Source: Sporocytophaga sp.
Lineage (GTDB): Bacteria; Bacteroidota; Bacteroidia; Cytophagales; Cytophagaceae
Length of the DNA stretch: 64,000 nt
NCBI GenBank assembly: GCA_024707265.1
Contig: JANQAB010000003.1
Span: 372,001-436,000, forward strand
Direction: 5' to 3'
The notes beneath the pieces were generated by a model. It was given only the letters and a program-made list of their open reading frames with translations, did not search any database and was not told the origin of the DNA. Positions 9,592-18,237 of this stretch are shown here, piece by piece. Position 1 is the first letter of the stretch. Every line of letters begins with the position of its first letter. The position numbers were made by a program, and so were the translations under genes.

Positions 9592-12500
9592 ATGAGAAAA
9601 AAGCTACCACCGAAAATCTCCCGGAGAGGTAATTTTATTACATCTCCGAGAATTTTTAAGATTGCGTTAACCCTCGCTGTCATTTTAGTCGGCTTTATGC
9701 AGGCAATGGCACAGGATGCAATTCCTATCACAGGAAGAATAGTATCCGATGATGGGGAAAGTATACCAGGAGTTACCATTGCTATCAAAGGAACTTCAGC
9801 TGGAACTATCACTGACGAAAATGGAGATTTCTCCATATCAGTACCGGATAGCAATGCAGTACTTGTTGTAAGCTATATTGGTTTTGTAACACAGGAAGTA
9901 AAAGTAGGGAGTCAGACAGTTGTAAATGTGAAGCTGCCAGCAGACAACAAACTTGACGAAGTTGTTGTCGTTGGTTACGGAACACAGAGGAAAGAAGACG
10001 TTACAGGTTCTGTAACTGTTGTAAAATCAGCGGAACTTAACAAAAACGTTGTTATCGATGCGACCCAGTCAATCCAGGGTAGAGTAACAGGGGTTAGCGT
10101 TACACAGAACAGTGGAGCCCCAGGTGCACCTTTATCCGTAAGAGTCAGAGGGGTTGGTACGATCAACGGCTCCAGTCCCTTCTATGTCGTAAACGGTGTT
10201 CCGGTACTTGATATCAGCACTATTAACTCAAACGATATTGAATCTATGAGTATCCTTAAAGATGCTGCTGCTGCTGCAATTTATGGATCAAGAGCTGCAA
10301 ACGGAGTTGTCCTTATCACAACAAAAGGAGGAAGCCCTAAAAAAACAACTTTTGATTTTAACTATCTGACCGGTGTTTCTCGTGAATGGAAAAGATATAA
10401 CCTTCTCGATGCCAAAGAATGGGCAACATTAAGAAATGAGGCTTCTATGACAGATAACGGTACAGTTCTTTACAACCCTGATACAATAGGTGCGGGAACA
10501 GACTGGCAGGATCAGATATTCAGAAAAGCAATGATGAAGAGCTATTCATTGAATGCTTCAGGAGCAACGGATAAGCTTAGTTATTATTTGGGAGGTGGTT
10601 ATCTGTCTCAGGAGGGTATTCTTAAAAACTCTGCTTATGAAAGATACACTTTTAATACAAAACTTGATTACCAGCTTGCAAAAAGATTGAAAGTTGGAAC
10701 TTTCATGAACATTGCATCTTTTAATCGTAAGCAGTTATATGACGGAGATCCATACAACTCTATCATTGCAAACTCTTTGAATATGGACCCTATCACGCCA
10801 TTGTATTCAGGCCTTGGCGGTGATTCGATTTTCGGATCAGGTGCAACAAGAACAGATGTTCCTAACCCACTTGCCAGACTAACTTACTACAACAACAGAT
10901 ACAAAGGTTTTAATTTCCTTGGCAGCTGGTTTGCAGAATACGAGATTATTAAAAACCTGAAAGTTAAAACTTCATTGGGATATCTATATAACAACTTAGA
11001 CAACCAACAATTTAATGGGAAATATTTCGTATCTGCGAATGAAAACCTTCAAGAGTCTCAAGTTGTAATGCAACAAAATCAGAACAAAAACCTCATCTGG
11101 GAAAACTCTGTAACTTACGAAAAAACAGTTGCCGAAAATCATAAACTTTCCGGCCTTTTTATGTTTGGAGCTCAGAATAATACTGCTTCATACTTTCGTG
11201 GAGCAAAAAATAACACATTTAACAATGATCCAAGCCAGTGGTATTTGAACTCAGCAACCGGAACCGCTACTGCGAACTCTCAAATGACTGAATACTCTAT
11301 GCTATCTTATTTATTCAGAATCAACTATGAATTTAAAGATAAGTATCAGCTTCAGGTTAACACAAGATATGATGGAACCTCTAGATATTTGGACAAGAAC
11401 AAATATGGTATTTTCCCTTCTATAGCTGCAGGTTGGATTTTATCTGAAGAAACATTCATGCAACCAATCAAATCTTATGTAAACTATTTTAAATTGAGAG
11501 GTAGCTACGGTAAACTTGGTAACCAGGACAATCCGGCCAGATATGCAGAATACCCTACCACAACCAACATATTTTCAGGATATAACTATGGTGGATTTTT
11601 CGGAAGTGCTCCTCTCGGATCAGGTAACAAAGACCTCAAATGGGAAACAGTCACTACTTCCAACATCGCTGTTGATTTAAGATTTTTGAATAACCGACTT
11701 GCGTTCACTGCTGAATATTTTACAAAGAAAACAGCAGATATGATTTACAGAAAGCAGGTACCATACTATGCAGGAACAGAAGAGCCTCCTTTTGTCAACG
11801 GTGGAACTATGCTAAACAAAGGTTTAGAGCTTGCTGCTGATTACACTAACTGGATAGGAAAACTACAATATAACGTTGGTGTAAACTTCACAACAATTAA
11901 AAACAAAGTAACCAAATTAGAAGATCCGATTTATCAAGGACAATTCAGAACTGTATATACCAACATTACCCAACAAGGAAGTCCAATTGCCCAATTCTAT
12001 GGATGGGAAACAAACGGAATCGTGCAGACAGCTGAAGAGGCAGCTGCACTTCAAACCGCACAACCAGGTGTACGTCCTGGAGACTTCAAATTTAAAGATC
12101 TTGATGGTGACGGTATTATTACTGATAAAGACAGAACTACCCTTGGAAGCCCACTACCAAAATTCACTTATGGTATTAATGGAAATGTAGCTTACAAAGG
12201 ATTTGACTTCTCATTGTTATTACAAGGAAGCTACGGAAACAAACTTTTCAATGGAAGCAAATACACACTTGAAGGTGGTGTTCCAAACTCCAACTTTTCA
12301 GATGCTATGCTTGACAGATGGACTGGTACTGGAACTTCAAACGATGTTCCAAGAGTATCTTCAAACGATGTAAATAATAACAGAAGACCTTCTAATTATT
12401 ATGTAGAGAGTGGTTCATTCTTAAGAGTAAGATCTATGCAGATAGGTTATACACTGCCGGATAAATTACCTCAACTAGTGAAACTGCAAAAGGTTAGAGT

Positions 12501-12678
12501 GTTTATTATGGCTCAGAACCTATTCACGTTTACTAAATATTCAGGACTTGATCCGGAGATCGGAACTTACACACCTGACTTCAACGTGACTAGTTCATAC
12601 CTTGACATAGGAGTTGACAAAGGAGGTACTTACCCACAAGCCAGAACGTGGTTTTTCGGAATCAATGCTTCATTTTAA
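9592..12678 (+). CDS. SusC/RagA-family TonB-linked outer-membrane transporter
   Basis: 1028 residues. After an N-terminal signal segment ending near MAQD (residue 41) comes a carboxypeptidase-D regulatory-like domain (ITGRIVSDDGESIPGVTIAIKGT, to about 115), then the TonB-box-like LDEVVVVGYGTQRKEDVTGSV, a plug domain with GRVTGVSVTQNSGAPGAPLSVRVRG and SILKDAAAAAIYGSRAANGVVLITTK, and a long beta-barrel ending in an aromatic residue (WFFGINASF). This is the usual SusC architecture. SusC proteins form TonB-driven channels closed by a SusD lid and import oligosaccharides or peptides. The substrate cannot be read from sequence. susD follows after 27 bases. The signal segment is unusually long and basic (about 25 residues before the hydrophobic core). 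Confidence 0.97.
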   Translation: MRKKLPPKISRRGNFITSPRIFKIALTLAVILVGFMQAMAQDAIPITGRIVSDDGESIPGVTIAIKGTSAGTITDENGDFSISVPDSNAVLVVSYIGFVTQEVKVGSQTVVNVKLPADNKLDEVVVVGYGTQRKEDVTGSVTVVKSAELNKNVVIDATQSIQGRVTGVSVTQNSGAPGAPLSVRVRGVGTINGSSPFYVVNGVPVLDISTINSNDIESMSILKDAAAAAIYGSRAANGVVLITTKGGSPKKTTFDFNYLTGVSREWKRYNLLDAKEWATLRNEASMTDNGTVLYNPDTIGAGTDWQDQIFRKAMMKSYSLNASGATDKLSYYLGGGYLSQEGILKNSAYERYTFNTKLDYQLAKRLKVGTFMNIASFNRKQLYDGDPYNSIIANSLNMDPITPLYSGLGGDSIFGSGATRTDVPNPLARLTYYNNRYKGFNFLGSWFAEYEIIKNLKVKTSLGYLYNNLDNQQFNGKYFVSANENLQESQVVMQQNQNKNLIWENSVTYEKTVAENHKLSGLFMFGAQNNTASYFRGAKNNTFNNDPSQWYLNSATGTATANSQMTEYSMLSYLFRINYEFKDKYQLQVNTRYDGTSRYLDKNKYGIFPSIAAGWILSEETFMQPIKSYVNYFKLRGSYGKLGNQDNPARYAEYPTTTNIFSGYNYGGFFGSAPLGSGNKDLKWETVTTSNIAVDLRFLNNRLAFTAEYFTKKTADMIYRKQVPYYAGTEEPPFVNGGTMLNKGLELAADYTNWIGKLQYNVGVNFTTIKNKVTKLEDPIYQGQFRTVYTNITQQGSPIAQFYGWETNGIVQTAEEAAALQTAQPGVRPGDFKFKDLDGDGIITDKDRTTLGSPLPKFTYGINGNVAYKGFDFSLLLQGSYGNKLFNGSKYTLEGGVPNSNFSDAMLDRWTGTGTSNDVPRVSSNDVNNNRRPSNYYVESGSFLRVRSMQIGYTLPDKLPQLVKLQKVRVFIMAQNLFTFTKYSGLDPEIGTYTPDFNVTSSYLDIGVDKGGTYPQARTWFFGINASF

Positions 12679-12705
12679 TTAATCACCTTCAAAATCGTAT
12701 TAACA

Positions 12706-14229
12706 ATGTTTAAAAAAATATATCCATTTATCGGTTTAATCGTGATCAGCACGTTGGGAGGTTGCAAGAAAGATTTTCTTGACAAGACTCCTCAGGCTGC
12801 TGTTACAGACGAAAACTACTATAAGACTGCATCTGATCTAAACAGTGCAATAAACGCTGCATACGACCCAATGGGTTGGGAAACTGAAAGAAAAGGTCAG
12901 ATTTACGCTAATCTTTTCTTCTTTGGAGACGTTGTTTCTGATGATGCAATAAAAGGCGGTAGCGGAACCAGTGATATTCCTGATTTTCACGCACTCGAAA
13001 CTTTCATAGGAAATGCCGGCTTACCTGCACTTTTATTACCATGGCAAAGAAACTATACTGGTATTTATAGAGCTAATCTCGTAATTGAAAGAGCTCCTCT
13101 TTCAAATGCAGATGAAGCTACTAAAACCAGAGTTATTAATGAGGCCAAGTTTTTAAGAGCTTACTATCACTTCGAACAGGTAAAAATGTATGGAGATGTA
13201 CCATTGGTAACAAAAGTACTTGGTGCTAACGATTACAATCTGGGCAGAACCCCGGCAGCTGAGGTTTACAAACAAATAGAAGCTGACCTTAAAGACGCTT
13301 CTGCCCTTCCTCAAAAAGGTGGAATTGAGACAGGAAGAGCAACAAGAGGTGCTGCGTTAGCTTTACTTGCAAAGGTTCAAATGTATCAGACTCGTACAGA
13401 TTTGGGAAAATGGAATGAAGTGTTAACCAATGCTGAATCTGTAATTAATTCAAAAATTTATGACCTGGAAAAAAAATATGCTGATGTCCATACAGTAGCA
13501 AAAGAAAATGGAATTGAGTCTATTTTTGAAATTCAAAGCAATACTAAAGTTGGTGGAGCGGCTGGGGATAACAACTCAGACTGGTCTCTCGGGAATGAAG
13601 GTACATTTATCAACGTTATGTTCAGAGGAAGAGATAATGGAGGTTGGGGTTTCAACTGTCCTTCTCTTGACCTTTTGGAAGAGTTTAAGAAAGAAAAGAC
13701 AGTTGATGGCCATGATGACCCTCGTTTAAAAGCAACCATAATCCAGGATGGAGATTCTGTATTTAATGAAAAGTACAAAGCGGATATCAATTCTTATCCT
13801 TATACAGGAACTTATTGCAGAAAATATGTGGAACCTCAAAGTTTATTTGGATTAAACCAAAGTGATGGACCTTCCAACTATAGAATTATCAGATATGCAG
13901 ATGTATTGCTTATGGCAGCAGAAGCAGCTAATGAATTGGGTATGACTGAAAAAGCTCTTAAATATCTGAAAGAAGTAAGAGACAGAGTTAATATGCCCGA
14001 AGTCACTGAGGTTAATAAGGATAGATTAAGAGAAATCATTTGGCGTGAAAGAAGGGTTGAACTTGCCCTTGAAGGTCATAGATTCTTTGACATCGTAAGA
14101 CAAGGAAGAGCTGCTCAGATTATGGGAAAAACTTATACTTTCAGCAATGCCCAGGAAGTATTCCCAGTACCTCAGGCAGAAATTGATATGTCAAAAGGAA
14201 AAATTAAGCAAACAACAGGATTAAAATAA
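12706..14229 (+). CDS. SusD/RagB-family nutrient-binding lipoprotein
   Basis: 507 residues. A lipoprotein signal peptide ends in LGGC with the lipid-bearing Cys at residue 20, followed by KKDFLDKTPQAAVTDENYYKT, the standard SusD opening. SusD features follow: INEAKFLRAYYHFEQVKMYGDVPLVTK, the YRIIRYADVLLMAAEAANELG helix near residue 395, and the C-terminal IIWRERRVELALEGHRFFDIVRQGRA. It caps the SusC barrel at the cell surface and binds the incoming glycan. The tight spacing to susC and to the next lipoprotein gene (19 bases) indicates a three-gene operon. Confidence 0.97.
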   Translation: MFKKIYPFIGLIVISTLGGCKKDFLDKTPQAAVTDENYYKTASDLNSAINAAYDPMGWETERKGQIYANLFFFGDVVSDDAIKGGSGTSDIPDFHALETFIGNAGLPALLLPWQRNYTGIYRANLVIERAPLSNADEATKTRVINEAKFLRAYYHFEQVKMYGDVPLVTKVLGANDYNLGRTPAAEVYKQIEADLKDASALPQKGGIETGRATRGAALALLAKVQMYQTRTDLGKWNEVLTNAESVINSKIYDLEKKYADVHTVAKENGIESIFEIQSNTKVGGAAGDNNSDWSLGNEGTFINVMFRGRDNGGWGFNCPSLDLLEEFKKEKTVDGHDDPRLKATIIQDGDSVFNEKYKADINSYPYTGTYCRKYVEPQSLFGLNQSDGPSNYRIIRYADVLLMAAEAANELGMTEKALKYLKEVRDRVNMPEVTEVNKDRLREIIWRERRVELALEGHRFFDIVRQGRAAQIMGKTYTFSNAQEVFPVPQAEIDMSKGKIKQTTGLK

Positions 14230-14248
14230 CATTTAAATCTTAATTAAC

Positions 14249-15400
14249 ATGAATATCAAAAGACTTTCCTTATATATTCTTATTACAGGAGTAATTTTTT
14301 CCTCCTGCAAACCGCAAAAGGGTAAAGATAAAGATTTACCTGCTCCTTCTTCTGCGGACTTCGTATTTGAGAGAAAAATAGACCCGGCAGATCCAGATGA
14401 TAAAAACACTTATACTTTCAGGAATACAACTCCTGGAGTGTTTATTACTTCATGGGATTTTGGAGGAGTAGCAAAATCTAAAAACCCAAATGAAACCGTT
14501 TTCTTTGGCTATAAAGGTACTTACAAAATAAAGTTGCTTACTACCTCTGCTGGTGGCACTACAACAATTACTAAAGATCTGGTAATTGAAGAGAATAGCC
14601 CTTATGCAGCAGATTTTACAATAGAAAACGTAAATGATTATACATTTAAGGTAACTTCTACTACTCCTGGCCCACAGGATTTAACATTTAAATATGCAAA
14701 TGGAGATAGTTCCAAATCTGGTGTTTCTACTGTATATTTCCCTTTTAAAGGATCTTATGACATTTCCTTGAAAGTGAAAACCGCTAAAGGATCATCAACC
14801 ATTACCAAGCAAGTGAATGTTGCAAATGATGACCTTTCCAATCCTGATCTTAACGATCCTATTGTTAAATTTTTAACAGGTGGTCTTGATGCTCCTAATG
14901 GAAAAACATGGGTGATGGTATCTGCTGGTAAAAGTGGTGGTGTTGGTCCTCTAAATACTTTAACTCCTGACTGGTGGGATCAACCGATGGGCTTCGGAGG
15001 TGATGCTTGGGACAAAGGTATGCTGAGCAATGAGTTTACATTTAACCTTCGTCAATACCAATATACTCCTAAGAGTAATAATGTAACCGTGCACTGGAAC
15101 TTTGCAAAAGAGTTAACCGGTTCAGCAAGACCTAAAGATCAGGACACTTATTACTCTGATCCTAAACATACAAAAGCTCCTTTTATTATCAGAAATGCAA
15201 ACTCTGGTGTAGGAACTGGCTATACATTGGACTTTGGCAATGGAAGCTACCTTGGATATTATGACAGACGTTACAATCATGATATTGTAAGAATATCTGC
15301 TGACACTTTGTACATCAGACATCACTACAATGATGACCCCACGGCAGACCCTGCAGGAGACGGTGGTGTAAGATACTTCACATTAGTACCCAAGAAGTAA
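14249..15400 (+). CDS. Surface lipoprotein with PKD-like domains (SusE/F position)
   Basis: 383 residues with a lipobox SSC (Cys20). Residues about 35-110 and 115-195 look like two PKD-type Ig folds (TYTFRNTTPGVFITSWDFGG, then a repeat of the form GTYKIKLLTTSAGG / GSYDISLKVKTAKG). The C-terminal half (from VKFLTGGLDAPNGKTWVM) is rich in Trp and aromatic residues and resembles the glycan-binding end of third genes in other sus-like operons. It is the last gene before a strong terminator. Role inferred from position: extra carbohydrate capture next to SusD. No catalytic motif is seen. Confidence 0.8.
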   Translation: MNIKRLSLYILITGVIFSSCKPQKGKDKDLPAPSSADFVFERKIDPADPDDKNTYTFRNTTPGVFITSWDFGGVAKSKNPNETVFFGYKGTYKIKLLTTSAGGTTTITKDLVIEENSPYAADFTIENVNDYTFKVTSTTPGPQDLTFKYANGDSSKSGVSTVYFPFKGSYDISLKVKTAKGSSTITKQVNVANDDLSNPDLNDPIVKFLTGGLDAPNGKTWVMVSAGKSGGVGPLNTLTPDWWDQPMGFGGDAWDKGMLSNEFTFNLRQYQYTPKSNNVTVHWNFAKELTGSARPKDQDTYYSDPKHTKAPFIIRNANSGVGTGYTLDFGNGSYLGYYDRRYNHDIVRISADTLYIRHHYNDDPTADPAGDGGVRYFTLVPKK

Positions 15401-15453: not shown

Positions 15454-15504
15454 GTTATACAAATTTGTAATTTCATTTCATTTTCATCCCTCTACCCTAT
15501 TAAA

Positions 15505-15524
15505 AATAACCATTTGTGGTTATT
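15505..15524. promoter_or_regulatory. Palindromic operator-like site A
   Basis: A perfect inverted repeat with 8-base arms, AATAACCA-tttg-TGGTTATT. Its right end overlaps TTGACC at 15523-15528, a -35-like hexamer. The same arrangement recurs at sites B and C. The symmetry and size suit a dimeric HTH regulator; the adjacent PAS-LuxR proteins are the obvious candidates, by inference. Confidence 0.7.
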
Positions 15525-15557
15525 GACCTATGCTCATTTTTTGGCAAATATTACACT

Positions 15558-15641
15558 GTGATTTTTCATTAATAATATTTTGGGGAGTTCAATCAGCTAT
15601 GTTAAACAACGACAACTTTATTATCTGAAGTTGTCGTTGTT
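15558..15641 (+). ncRNA. Candidate small RNA unit A
   Basis: No open frame of note. Boundaries are inferred. The proposed 5' end is GTGATT at 15558, exactly 35 bases after the TTGACC hexamer, as in unit B. The body holds GGGGAGTTCAATCAGCTA at 15582-15599, matching unit B in 16 of 18 bases, and it ends in a perfect 14-base-pair hairpin (15605-15618 with 15628-15641, nine-base loop). No T run follows that hairpin, so it may be a structural element rather than a terminator. A 5' untranslated leader is excluded by the absence of a following gene for 480 bases. Confidence 0.5.
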
Positions 15642-15849
15642 CATTTGCCCCATGTCCTTAAAAGTCGTACCAACCTTTCTCTTACCAAGTTTTAAATCAA
15701 TCACAACTAAAGCTCATTCTACCTATCTTCAAACATCAATTTTCATTTAGCAATAATTATCTTTAAAGTTAAATAGGAACATGCTATTCGTAGCTGTTAG
15801 TCTATAATTGATCAACTCTCCGTCCAACGTTCTCTCTTCAAACATTAAA

Positions 15850-15869
15850 AATAACCATTAGTGGTTATT
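15850..15869. promoter_or_regulatory. Palindromic operator-like site B
   Basis: Perfect inverted repeat AATAACCA-ttag-TGGTTATT, identical in both arms to site A, with TTGACC at 15868-15873 in the same position. Confidence 0.7.
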
Positions 15870-15902
15870 GACCTCAGCCCATAATTTTACAATTTTTGTG
15901 TC

Positions 15903-16000
15903 GTGATTATTAAGTAATACTTGGGAAGTTCAACCAGCTAATTTTTTTTACCTAAACTAAACTAAAACGGCAGACTCATTTTGAATCTGCCGTTTTTTTT
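15903..16000 (+). ncRNA. Candidate small RNA unit B
   Basis: About 98 bases, boundaries inferred. It starts at GTGATT (15903, 35 bases after TTGACC at 15868), carries GGGAAGTTCAACCAGCTA at 15923-15940, and ends in a strong terminator at 15964-16000. No start codon opens a frame longer than a few codons. Compared with unit A the loop region and operator are conserved while the hairpin arms differ in sequence but keep the pairing, the pattern expected of a family of structured RNAs. Confidence 0.58.
15964..16000 (+). terminator. Rho-independent terminator of unit B
   Basis: AAAACGGCAGA (15964-15974) pairs with TCTGCCGTTTT (15986-15996) and the T run continues to 16000. No protein gene ends nearby on this strand (the nearest stop is 560 bases upstream and already has its own terminator), so it must end a non-coding transcript. 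Confidence 0.85.
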
Positions 16001-16121
16001 ATGCTTAACCCTTAAGAATTACATCTAAATTTATTATTATTATACCCTGATATATCGAACCTTTTGAGGGGTCAATCTATTTTTTCACAAAATCTTTTTT
16101 ATTAACTAAACTTATTCTTTT

Positions 16122-16925
16122 ATGGGTATTACCAATTTGCAGAAAAAATATACCGAACTGAATGTCATTAATGAGGAGATTGTTTCTTTAGCAAATGAGC
16201 CTGATATATATTTTCAAATTGAAAAAATAAAAAAGCTACAGGAGATATATCCGCATTTGAAACACTCCCCTAATATCATTTGTGTTATAGATATTTTAAC
16301 TCAGGAATATCTTTTTGTAAGTGACAACATCCTTGCTATTCTAGGCCATGAGCCTTACGATATATATAAAGAAGGTTTCAGAAAGACATTCTCATTATTT
16401 GCGCCAAATCAGCTTAAAATAATACTGGAAAAAATATTTCCTACAATGTTTAAATTTTTCAACCAACATAAACAATCCGGAAATATAATGGATCTGAAAA
16501 TCTCATTTTCTGCATTAATGAGCCACAAAGATGGCTCTCAAAGATGGTACTTGAATCAGATCACTGTTGTGAGGCAAAATGAAGATAATAATCCGCACTG
16601 GCTACTAAAACAGGTTACAGATATACATGATTTCAAAAATGACAATTTTATAACCTTTGTTATTGCTCAAAAAAACCAAAATGGTATATATCGTAACACA
16701 TATAAAGAATCCTTTTTATGTGATGAGGAATCAACCAATTTAACAGAAAGAGAAATTGAAATTTTACACCTCATGAGCCAGGGATTTTCAAGCAGAGAAA
16801 TCGCAGAGGCTCTTTTTATCAGCCTGCATACAGTTTACAAGCACAGAAAAAATATGTTGAAGAAAATGGATGTAAAAAGATCCGGAGACCTGATGAAAGC
16901 AGCAATGAAAGCAGGCTTAATTTGA
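16122..16925 (+). CDS. PAS-domain LuxR-family transcription regulator, copy 1
   Basis: 267 residues. Residues about 45-180 form a PAS sensor fold (CVIDILTQEYLFVSDNILAILGHEPYDIYKEGF at about 54-86; SHKDGSQRWYLNQITVV later). Residues about 205-267 are a LuxR/GerE helix-turn-helix: LTEREIEILHLMSQGFSSREIAEALFIS, then HTVYKHRKNMLKKMDV. There is no receiver domain or histidine kinase nearby, so it is a one-component regulator; a ligand or cofactor in the PAS pocket cannot be predicted. It lies between candidate RNA units B and C and is a close paralog of the protein at 17428. It probably binds the shared palindromes (inference). Confidence 0.92.
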   Translation: MGITNLQKKYTELNVINEEIVSLANEPDIYFQIEKIKKLQEIYPHLKHSPNIICVIDILTQEYLFVSDNILAILGHEPYDIYKEGFRKTFSLFAPNQLKIILEKIFPTMFKFFNQHKQSGNIMDLKISFSALMSHKDGSQRWYLNQITVVRQNEDNNPHWLLKQVTDIHDFKNDNFITFVIAQKNQNGIYRNTYKESFLCDEESTNLTEREIEILHLMSQGFSSREIAEALFISLHTVYKHRKNMLKKMDVKRSGDLMKAAMKAGLI

Positions 16926-17008
16926 AGCCTTCCATGAATGACTTTATTTTCTCGACTAAAAAACAATCATGAATTTAATTATAGCTCAAACCTTAAAAAA
17001 GCTATAAA

Positions 17009-17028
17009 AATAACCAATATTGGTAATT
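17009..17028. promoter_or_regulatory. Palindromic operator-like site C
   Basis: AATAACCA-atat-TGGTAATT, the same left arm as sites A and B with one changed base in the right arm. TTGCCC at 17027-17032 replaces TTGACC but keeps the position. Confidence 0.6.
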
Positions 17029-17061
17029 GCCCCCTTGCTTAAACCTTTCTAATATTGTCTT

Positions 17062-17210
17062 ATTAAGTTTTACTCAGATAATATTTATCCGATCGATAAT
17101 AATATTACAATCTAAGATTACGGCGAAGTTTGAATTAAGTGCTCAAATCATTTTTTAATATCTTTTTGCCTTAGAGAGGCTGTCTCAGGATTTGAGGCAG
17201 CTTTTTTTTT
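17062..17210 (+). ncRNA. Candidate small RNA unit C
   Basis: A more diverged third member; limits inferred from the -35-like hexamer and the terminator. It shares TTATTAAG (17060-17067) with unit B and a GAAGTT core (17124-17129) with unit B, but is about 50 bases longer. It lies between the two regulator genes and ends in its own terminator; the downstream regulator starts 218 bases later. It could alternatively be a long leader of that regulator with an attenuator. Confidence 0.45.
17179..17210 (+). terminator. Rho-independent terminator of unit C
   Basis: GCTGTCTCA (17179-17187) pairs with TGAGGCAGC (17193-17201), with one G-U pair and a five-base loop, followed by nine T. Confidence 0.85.
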
Positions 17211-17427
17211 GACTGTTGGATGATTTTTCTTTAACCATTCTTCTAGTGAAGAAATTCTTTCTGATCCCCCGATTACAGTTCTTTTCAATATTTAATTTAT
17301 CTTTCATACATACCCATACTTTTCTAAAATACCTAAAAATCGGTATATTTACTAGCACAATGCATTTTCTAAGGTTGCATTTTTATGACAGGATAAATTA
17401 ATTTATTAAATTTTTATTACATTTTTT

Positions 17428-18237
17428 ATGAAAAGTATCCAACCAATTAAGACTAATCTAGATTATTACAGACAAGCAAGTAAAGTAATCTGGAAATATG
17501 TCCCAATTGATATTATTCAATTTAAGACGAATGAGAAACCGACAAATTTACCTCAATTCCGATCACTCACGGCATTATTTCCAAGTGTTGTATGTGCAAT
17601 AGACATAAAGTCCAAAGAATATCTATATGTAAGCAACAATATCGCAAGCACACTTGGATATTCCCCAGAGGAATTTTACACTGAAGGTTTTCTTAAGACT
17701 ATCAAACTTTTTCCTTTATCTCAGCTGGAAATTGTTCTTGAAAAAATCTTCCCGCTAATGTTTGAAACGCTTGAAAAATATAGTACATCTGATAATGTTG
17801 AAGACTTAAAAATATCTTATTGCACCTTAATTAACCACAAGGATGGACATCAGCATTGGTTTCTTCACCAAATAACTGTTTTAGTAAAAGATGAAAATAA
17901 TAAAGCTCATATTTTAATTAAACAGGTGACAGACATTAATCACTATAAAACCGATGACAACATCATATTTACTGTTGATAAGAAAGATGCTCATGGAGTA
18001 TACCATAACATATTTAAAAAATCCTTTTTATCTAAAAACATAGAGCATGCTCTATCAGATAGAGAAATTGAAGTACTTCATTTAATGGGACAGGGTTATA
18101 CTAGCAAAGAAATTGCAGATTCTTTATTTGTAAGTGAACATACGATTTATAAGCACAGAAAAAATATGCTTAAAAAGATGAATGTGAAAAGATCTGGTGA
18201 TCTTTTAAAGAAAGCTATGGGGTCAGGAATTATCTAG
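17428..18237 (+). CDS. PAS-domain LuxR-family transcription regulator, copy 2
   Basis: 269 residues, paralog of the regulator at 16122 along its whole length. The PAS part reads VCAIDIKSKEYLYVSNNIASTLGYSPEEFYTEGF (about 56-89) and INHKDGHQHWFLHQITVL. The HTH part reads LSDREIEVLHLMGQGYTSKEIADSLFVSEHTIYKHRKNMLKKMNVKRSGDLL. The ATG at 17428 is chosen because it gives the same N-terminal length as the paralog. DNA recognition helices of the two copies are nearly identical (HTVYKHRKNM / HTIYKHRKNM), so they could share targets while sensing different signals. Confidence 0.92.
   Translation: MKSIQPIKTNLDYYRQASKVIWKYVPIDIIQFKTNEKPTNLPQFRSLTALFPSVVCAIDIKSKEYLYVSNNIASTLGYSPEEFYTEGFLKTIKLFPLSQLEIVLEKIFPLMFETLEKYSTSDNVEDLKISYCTLINHKDGHQHWFLHQITVLVKDENNKAHILIKQVTDINHYKTDDNIIFTVDKKDAHGVYHNIFKKSFLSKNIEHALSDREIEVLHLMGQGYTSKEIADSLFVSEHTIYKHRKNMLKKMNVKRSGDLLKKAMGSGII

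Follow-up and report, generated by a model that had tools for sequence, protein, structure and literature searches.

The 64,000-nucleotide stretch of a Sporocytophaga sp. genome examined here (contig JANQAB010000003.1, positions 372,001 to 436,000; G000:C9:372001-436000 in our genome set, called the window throughout; genome size 6.76 Mb) carries two genes for regulators with a predicted PAS domain and a LuxR-type helix-turn-helix (HTH), luxR1 and luxR2, interleaved with three small-RNA-like units, A, B and C, each of which lies behind a 20-bp inverted repeat, or dyad (Table 1). A first-pass annotation of this DNA had suggested a circuit of LuxR-family regulators and small RNAs (sRNAs) from this layout, and missed that the core of A and B has the antisense sequence of the 5' end predicted for a multicopy family of sRNAs, themselves predicted and here called S/T. 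Because A and B carry this antisense in their most conserved stretch, the two units are likely to be sponges, and on balance we think it probable that they block S/T RNAs and are switched on by the neighbouring PAS-LuxR proteins.

Table 1. Predicted features of the array in the window, and positions of sister boxes in the four genomes of the genus (G000 to G003)
Feature	Position	Strand	Remarks
Dyad A, predicted LuxR-type operator, AATAACCATTTGTGGTTATT	15505-15524	+	right edge overlaps -33 TTG (15523-15525)
-7 box of unit A, AAATATTA	15546-15553	+	last base G in three relatives (AAATATTG, AATAATTG, AAATATTG)
RNA unit A	15558-15641	+	perfect 14-bp arms, 15605-15618 and 15628-15641; U-tract lost here
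Antisense core of A, GTTCAATCAGCTATG	15587-15601	+	15-bp duplex with CATAGCTGGTTGAAC of S_C10b, including one G-U pair
Dyad B, AATAACCATTAGTGGTTATT	15850-15869	+	-33 TTG at 15868-15870
-7 box of unit B, AATTTTTG	15891-15898	+	20 nt past -33 TTG
RNA unit B	15903-16000	+	terminal hairpin about 15964-15996, then T-run
CTTGGG of B	15920-15925	+	its UUGGG is predicted to make a second contact, to CCCAA of the S hairpin 1 loop
Antisense core of B, GTTCAACCAGCTA	15928-15940	+	13 Watson-Crick pairs with S_C10b
luxR1, PAS-LuxR regulator	16122-16925	+	267 aa
Dyad C, AATAACCAATATTGGTAATT	17009-17028	+	-33 TTG at 17027-17029
-7 box of unit C, TAATATTG	17050-17057	+	
RNA unit C	17062-17210	+	hairpin and T-run; no antisense core
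luxR2, PAS-LuxR regulator	17428-18237	+	269 aa; predicted PAS and LuxR HTH
Sister boxes, G000	C1:684834, C2:67486, C4:827541, C4:827970		
Sister boxes, G001	C12:16308		
Sister boxes, G002	C20:509357, C4:284689, C5:3564, C4:389264, C4:448118		
Sister boxes, G003	C8:1779, C62:3154, C44:63913		

The three dyads, which the first-pass annotation had already pointed out, are near-identical and were recovered with their right-end hexamers, TTGACC in A and B and TTGCCC in C. The last bases of each dyad belong to the -33 TTG of a promoter of Bacteroidota type. Scanning the window for AATAACCAN4TGGTWATTG with up to 3 mismatches gave 8 matches against 0.82 expected (0/100 shuffles reached 8), six of them dyads A, B and C read on both strands, and exact matches to the pattern across the whole genome were confined to these three. 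In 8/8 A/B units from four species, the dyad centre lay 43 nt ahead of where the homologous block begins, the 5' end of A/B being predicted from sequence as the start of the block that follows the -7 box. A centre near -42, overlapping the -35/-33 element, is the class II position for a LuxR-type activator; the 43-nt layout appears to fit it, in keeping with the earlier proposal of small-RNA-like units behind activator sites. Since the dyads sit at the promoters of A and B, the PAS-LuxR proteins are likely to be their activators. A -7-like box lies 20 nt beyond the TTG in all three units and resembles the Bacteroidota consensus TAnnTTTG quoted in PMC7366714 (partial text). The window copy of unit A lacks its T-run and the final base of this box, both kept by its three orthologues; judged from these letters, the box is probably weakened and the unit probably decaying in the window strain.

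Dyad plus TTGAC (at most one mismatch) was found in 4/390 genomes of the order, all four in the genus, and in 0/386 of the others; by this pattern the dyad is a genus-specific element. A looser form, lacking the AC after TTG and again with at most one mismatch, was present in 7/19 family genomes, the three outside the genus being G009, G010 and G016. Two of the three matches in G010 were inspected as possible further units and neither shows one.

The earlier claim of a non-coding unit behind each dyad held up. Folding z-scores were -4.75 for A (folded as 15558-15660), -2.47 for B and -2.39 for C, and A and B have no conserved reading frame, with indels that are not multiples of three inside the conserved stretch. 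Conservation over the four species was high in dyad, promoter, core and hairpin (72-96% identity) and low in flanking DNA (34-43%): mean pairwise identities for B were 0.92 (dyad), 0.96 (core) and 0.87 (terminator) against 0.34 in the upstream flank, and for A 0.94 (dyad), 0.85 (core) and 0.81 (hairpin) against 0.39-0.43 in the flanks. In the A/B hairpin, 5/15 pairs changed on both sides and 97.5% of cells were paired, giving a covariation score of 0.307 that 0/500 shuffles reached (slid controls 0.007-0.143); covariation in related genomes, whose absence the first-pass annotation had named as counting against its proposal, was thus found for A and B. As far as sequence can tell, both units are under selection.

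A covariance model of A/B (R1), run on 19 family genomes with the best 150 candidates scored per genome, returned two matches in each of the 4/4 genus genomes (82-103 bits). The next best, at 46 bits, was the opposite strand of the G001 B unit, all 34 other rows scored 46 bits or less, and nothing exceeded 41.4 bits in the 15 family genomes outside the genus. A scan of contigs gave two weak loci, one in a Flavobacteriaceae genome and one in a Sporocytophaga metagenome-assembled genome. The view that A, B and C form one RNA family survived in part: A and B are paralogous, sharing promoter, core and hairpin and differing in their flanks, whereas C aligns only with its counterpart in G001 (80% identity), the G003 contig ending before the site. 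Rfam gave no match at gathering score in the whole window and nine sub-threshold matches between 15400 and 17430 (E 0.07-0.99).

The locus recurred in three further genomes of the genus (G001, G002 and G003), A and B being present in all four. The order A - B - luxR1 - C - luxR2 is shared by the window and G001. G002 has A, a dyad with a broken secreted-looking gene, a luxR3 remnant, B and luxR1, and lacks luxR2 except for a 24-residue C-terminal trace; G003 has A, a luxR3 remnant, B and the start of luxR1 at a contig end, with luxR2 on a separate contig. luxR3 is frameshifted in both G002 and G003, and tblastn searches of the window and of G001 recovered nothing of it. Each RNA unit thus has, or had, a PAS-LuxR gene behind it in some species, and the ancestral array probably consisted of three modules of dyad, RNA and PAS-LuxR gene. 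The G002 dyad at the broken gene (L087, reverse complement 3555) is identical to dyad C, so that the dyad also occurs apart from RNA units. The DNA leading directly up to unit A (9592-15400 of the window) holds SusC-like, SusD-like (by eye) and PKD-domain genes, and G001, G002 and G003 have comparable genes ahead of the array, which thus sits behind a polysaccharide-utilisation-type locus.

These arrangements also bear on whether the units are cis-acting 5' leaders, in which the dyad promoter reads through into the next luxR and the terminator serves as an attenuator. Such leaders would suit the short distances from B (121 nt) and C (217 nt) to the following luxR starts, the conservation of the stretch from B to luxR1 (0.79 mean pairwise identity) and the luxR remnant behind A in G002 and G003, and would suit C best, which may be an sRNA of its own or the luxR2 leader. 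However, past the B terminator and ahead of the luxR1 ATG a -7-like box is conserved (three relatives have TACCTTTT, the window AACCTTTT), and conservation of the stretch would also be expected of a luxR1 promoter and leader; G001 A keeps promoter, core and terminator though no luxR trace follows it; and the A/B fold shows no competing antiterminator in a search confined to the consensus structure. Overall, we regard the leader interpretation as quite improbable.

Both regulators passed the Pfam cut-off for GerE (the LuxR HTH), and PAS_3 fell below cut-off in both (20.4 and 25.5 versus 25.6 bits). A PAS fold is present, together with the HTH, in the predicted structure of LuxR2. The first-pass naming of two PAS-LuxR regulators is supported. 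luxR1 is 93-94% identical in G001 and G002, and in G003 its first 79 aa are 95% identical before the contig ends. In Foldseek, LuxR2 ranked first with 3clo, the solved structure of a Bacteroides thetaiotaomicron LuxR-type regulator (identity 17-19% by Foldseek and 10% by VIA), followed by VqmA (6ugl, 6ide, 6kju, 7dwm) and EL222. VqmA stood within the top ten rows at full-length TM 0.26-0.41 and root-mean-square deviation 8-12 A and was not named among the 47 PDB sequences matched at E <= 0.001 in a profile search, a likeness of fold only. Relatives at E <= 1e-30 occurred in 11/59 related genomes searched. Outside the genus (28-44% identity), no such dyad was seen upstream in the 9 loci parsed, namely those of 16 whose HTH was found by script, one having only 441 nt upstream.

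The core of A and B, GUUCAAYCAGCUA, is complementary, in each of the four species, to S RNAs and T RNAs over 12-15 nt with at most one G-U pair; towards T RNAs and S copies of GAAA type, the B core forms 12 pairs. Searching the four genomes (about 26 Mb) for the reverse complement of GTTCAAYCAGCTA, a 14-mer, with at most one mismatch gave 30 matches (15 for the reversed control), of which 8 were A/B units, 10 were 5' ends of S RNAs and 12 were others. The exact 12-mer gave 35 matches versus 3 in the control: 7 in A/B, 9 in S, 7 in T, 3 in recQ-like leaders, 4 in tandem words and 5 others. Outside A/B, 16/28 exact matches therefore lie at 5' ends of S/T RNAs, the multicopy S and T matches being non-independent events. 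The tandem words (GGTTAGCTGRTTGAAT) are intergenic, at G001:C2:629134 and 629297 and at G003:C33:488798 and 488854, those in G001 sitting 3.7-3.9 kb from an S RNA.

S RNAs share a TAACTTTG-like box, 4 nt, the word (TC or CT)ACCATAGCT(G/A)GTTGAA and a hairpin whose loop is C-rich, and all but copy C4a have a terminator; one near-identical copy occurs in each of the four species. T RNAs start with CCATAGCTGGTTGAAAGA and then run into a hairpin, and both kinds have promoter-like boxes upstream and hairpins downstream. A covariance model of the family (R2) added four S copies, with the word cut to TAGCTGGTTGA in G001:C6 and G002:C12 and lost in G000 C4c and C7b. Six S loci and seven T-type loci had no Rfam match at E <= 0.05, and the antisense relation between the A/B core and the 5' end of this family is what the present analysis adds to the first-pass annotation.

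Cofolding gave -13.7 to -23.2 kcal/mol for 18/18 same-species A/B-S pairs, using 9/10 S RNAs (the copy without terminator was left out). After shuffling the 5' part of A/B, means were -2.7 to -6.2 kcal/mol and 0/200 shuffles were as strong for each pair; unit C as a control gave -1.9 to -4.4 kcal/mol. When 1,500 random segments of the window were cofolded instead, A was equalled by 0-3 of them (five S RNAs) and by none for T2, and B by 3-20 (five S RNAs) and by 3 for T2. Duplexfold was discarded as a pairing score, being too forgiving of A-U tails, and cofolding was used in its place. A predicted second contact, which played no part in the search, appeared in 2 of the 3 cofolds inspected (those of A and of B with S_C10b, but not that of G3_B with S_C22), and its UUGG is invariant in 8/8 A/B units.

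Several observations limit this support. S RNAs were found by their complementarity, and the cofolds consequently speak to the strength of pairing and not to its independence. Copy C10a has one mismatch to the core, and divergent S copies pair less: two fail with B, and with A one of them is at background while the other is equalled or beaten by 27/1,500 segments. The strong terminators that the first-pass annotation had given B and C are there as a hairpin followed by a T-run, but a simple scan that accepts mismatch-free stems only lists none of A, B or C on the plus strand (3 sites in the window versus 2.3 expected). More independent support comes from the second contact and from the word itself, which stands at the 5' end of a single RNA family and is also present beyond the genus.

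The same evidence addresses mere coincidence, under which A and B would do an unrelated job. S/T did emerge from scanning about 26 Mb for the complement, where the reversed 14-mer also produced matches, yet the true matches gather at predicted 5' ends of a single RNA family in four species, the exact 12-mer outside A/B exceeds its control (28 versus 3, with the non-independence of copies noted above), the word is kept in other genera, and some pairs make the unsearched contact. We consider coincidence very unlikely.

The S/T word (CAUAGCUGGUUGA) occurs in 11/15 family genomes outside the genus, and CATAGCTGGTTGA with a following hairpin in 11/15 such genomes and 7/9 other genera; these loci score low with the model and were identified through the word, several low rows not being inspected singly. 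Across 12 aligned T rows (11 genomes, 7 genera) the word is invariant and the hairpin sequence variable, an invariance that is partly by choice, since rows were selected for carrying the word and 3/14 of the best non-genus R2 matches, which lack it, were left out. A DEAD-box-helicase-like gene lies upstream of T2 (G001-G003) and of 4/7 non-genus loci whose neighbours were read. An order-wide search for S with a fixed 7-nt spacer after TTTG, and hence blind to T RNAs, found 8 matches outside the genus, with 2 mismatches each and judged from the matched letters only. Four matches of CCATAGCTGGTTGAAAG on viral contigs all fell within reading frames and were taken as chance. Because it is present in family genomes outside the genus, the S/T word seems older than A/B.

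This distribution is also informative on whether A and B are ordinary mRNA-targeting sRNAs under PAS-LuxR control, in the manner of VqmR, with S/T as their sponges or as sharers of the same target space. Promoter, hairpin and conservation fit such sRNAs equally well, and they too would have a conserved unpaired core. However, the exact core complements outside A/B fall largely at S/T 5' ends, and S/T keep the word in family genomes where model R1 finds no A/B unit, so that S/T are likely to function independently of A/B. We find this alternative unlikely.

The most natural interpretation is that mRNAs carrying the sense word before their start codons are translationally repressed by S/T, and that A/B mimic this target. 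A candidate target is recQ: in G000, G002 and G003, the genomes covered by the leader comparison, a recQ-like gene (named by eye) has the sense word TTCAACCAGCTA, identical to the B word, in its leader, with 7 nt between the end of the word and the start codon. The G000 leader cofolded with T2 at -17.5 kcal/mol (0/600 background segments as strong) and with S_C10b at -14.0 kcal/mol (1/600). The sense word TTCAAYCAGCTA was seen before the start codons of the recQ-like gene (L219, L232, L226) and of an IS200-like ORF in G001 (L217, by eye), both being candidate S/T targets. The SusC gene at 9592 was dropped as a target, as it fell outside the six strongest ORFs of the window.

Together, a mechanism can be proposed. 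The PAS domain would sense a ligand or other cue, and a LuxR dimer would bind the dyad at -43, overlapping the -33 TTG, as a class II-type activator. The A/B core is predicted by folding to form a stable duplex with the S/T 5' end, helped in some pairs by the UUGGG-CCCAA contact. This duplex would hide the S/T seed and may destroy the RNA, so that target mimicry by A/B would release the mRNAs that S/T repress, recQ being a candidate among them. The array itself may have arisen by duplication of the dyad-RNA-PAS-LuxR module and, judging from the remnants, be shrinking now.

Most of what is known about sponge RNAs and LuxR-sRNA pairs comes from Gammaproteobacteria. In vibrios, the DPO receptor VqmA activates vqmR, an sRNA gene lying upstream of vqmA (PMC10426928, partial text). 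The array shares with that system a one-component regulator of PAS plus LuxR HTH (as predicted fold), a dyad at the unit promoter and, by sequence, a terminated sRNA-like unit directly upstream of the regulator (B/luxR1 and C/luxR2, and in relatives). Unlike VqmA-VqmR, it comprises two to three tandem modules, its A/B RNAs are without Rfam match, and these look sponge-like and not like mRNA regulators. The QrrX sponge of Vibrio cholerae, with its LysR-type activator QrrT (PMC9732341, partial text), offers the second parallel: as far as that text goes, it is likewise a small RNA beside a transcription-factor gene and aimed at the conserved pairing domain of multicopy sRNAs, but is LysR-type and Hfq-linked, whereas here the regulators are PAS-LuxR, the RNA has two copies and sponge action is a prediction. 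On sequence grounds, A and B have other sponge features too, namely their own promoter and terminator, non-coding character and complementarity to the S/T word, the presumed S/T pairing region. By analogy, the array most likely works like VqmA-VqmR in layout and QrrX in sponging. The fuller version, a ligand-sensing PAS-LuxR switch that transcribes target-mimic sponges against a family-wide sRNA seed, combining VqmA-VqmR wiring and QrrX sponging in one self-duplicating module, we put forward as plausible though somewhat short of probable.

S/T resemble in design the FopS/GibS sRNAs of Bacteroides, which, in the partial text of PMC11697453, are multicopy, about 65-70 nt long, share a 5' seed, have sigma-ABfr-type promoters and act near start codons; compared by eye, their R1' consensus (GTGTTTTTCATAGTATTAGATTTAAGG..., same source) shares only CATAG with S/T. 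Trans-acting sRNAs of Bacteroidota are barely studied and the RNA-binding proteins of the phylum differ (PMC7366714 and PMC11697453, both partial texts). A search of titles, abstract openings and open-licence PMC texts turned up no paper on such a locus and, for Bacteroidota, neither VqmA-VqmR-type wiring nor QrrX-type sponging. Sequence has thus yielded a candidate conserved sRNA family of this phylum with a near-invariant 5' word (S/T), and a genus-specific putative antagonist that carries the antisense of this word beside its candidate regulator; if true, both sponge RNAs and LuxR-sRNA pairing would appear in Bacteroidota.

The composite of dyad, spacing and -7 box matched 28 times in the four genomes (reversed control 0): 11 at the array locus, 3 at a unit D, 13 at sister boxes and 1 elsewhere. 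Sister boxes read AATGACCA-N4-TGGCTATTG or differ slightly from it, and their spacing to the -7 box is much the same (Table 1). For 11/13, an ORF with a signal-peptide-like start (secreted or lipoprotein, by eye) follows within 500 nt; the remaining two form a tandem pair on G000:C4, one of which was read by the ORF scan and had no ORF listed within 500 nt. About 130 nt past C4:827541 starts an ORF that lacks a signal peptide and looks acyl-carrier-like by eye. Given the 28 versus 0 composite matches and the ORFs behind the sister boxes, the box-promoter layout looks like a real expression element, and the sister boxes may belong to a regulon run by other PAS-LuxR paralogues in the genome.

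Unit D is a fourth dyad, at G000:C2:746395 (L092:5396) and G001:C3:242909 (L090:3910), with about 150 nt of partly conserved sequence downstream in which neither terminator nor antisense core was seen; one of its three composite matches is a mirror match, and transposase-like ORFs lie behind the dyad in G000 only. G003 carries a second dyad, AATTACCAATATTGGTAATAA, 43 nt upstream of the A dyad (L088:2982).

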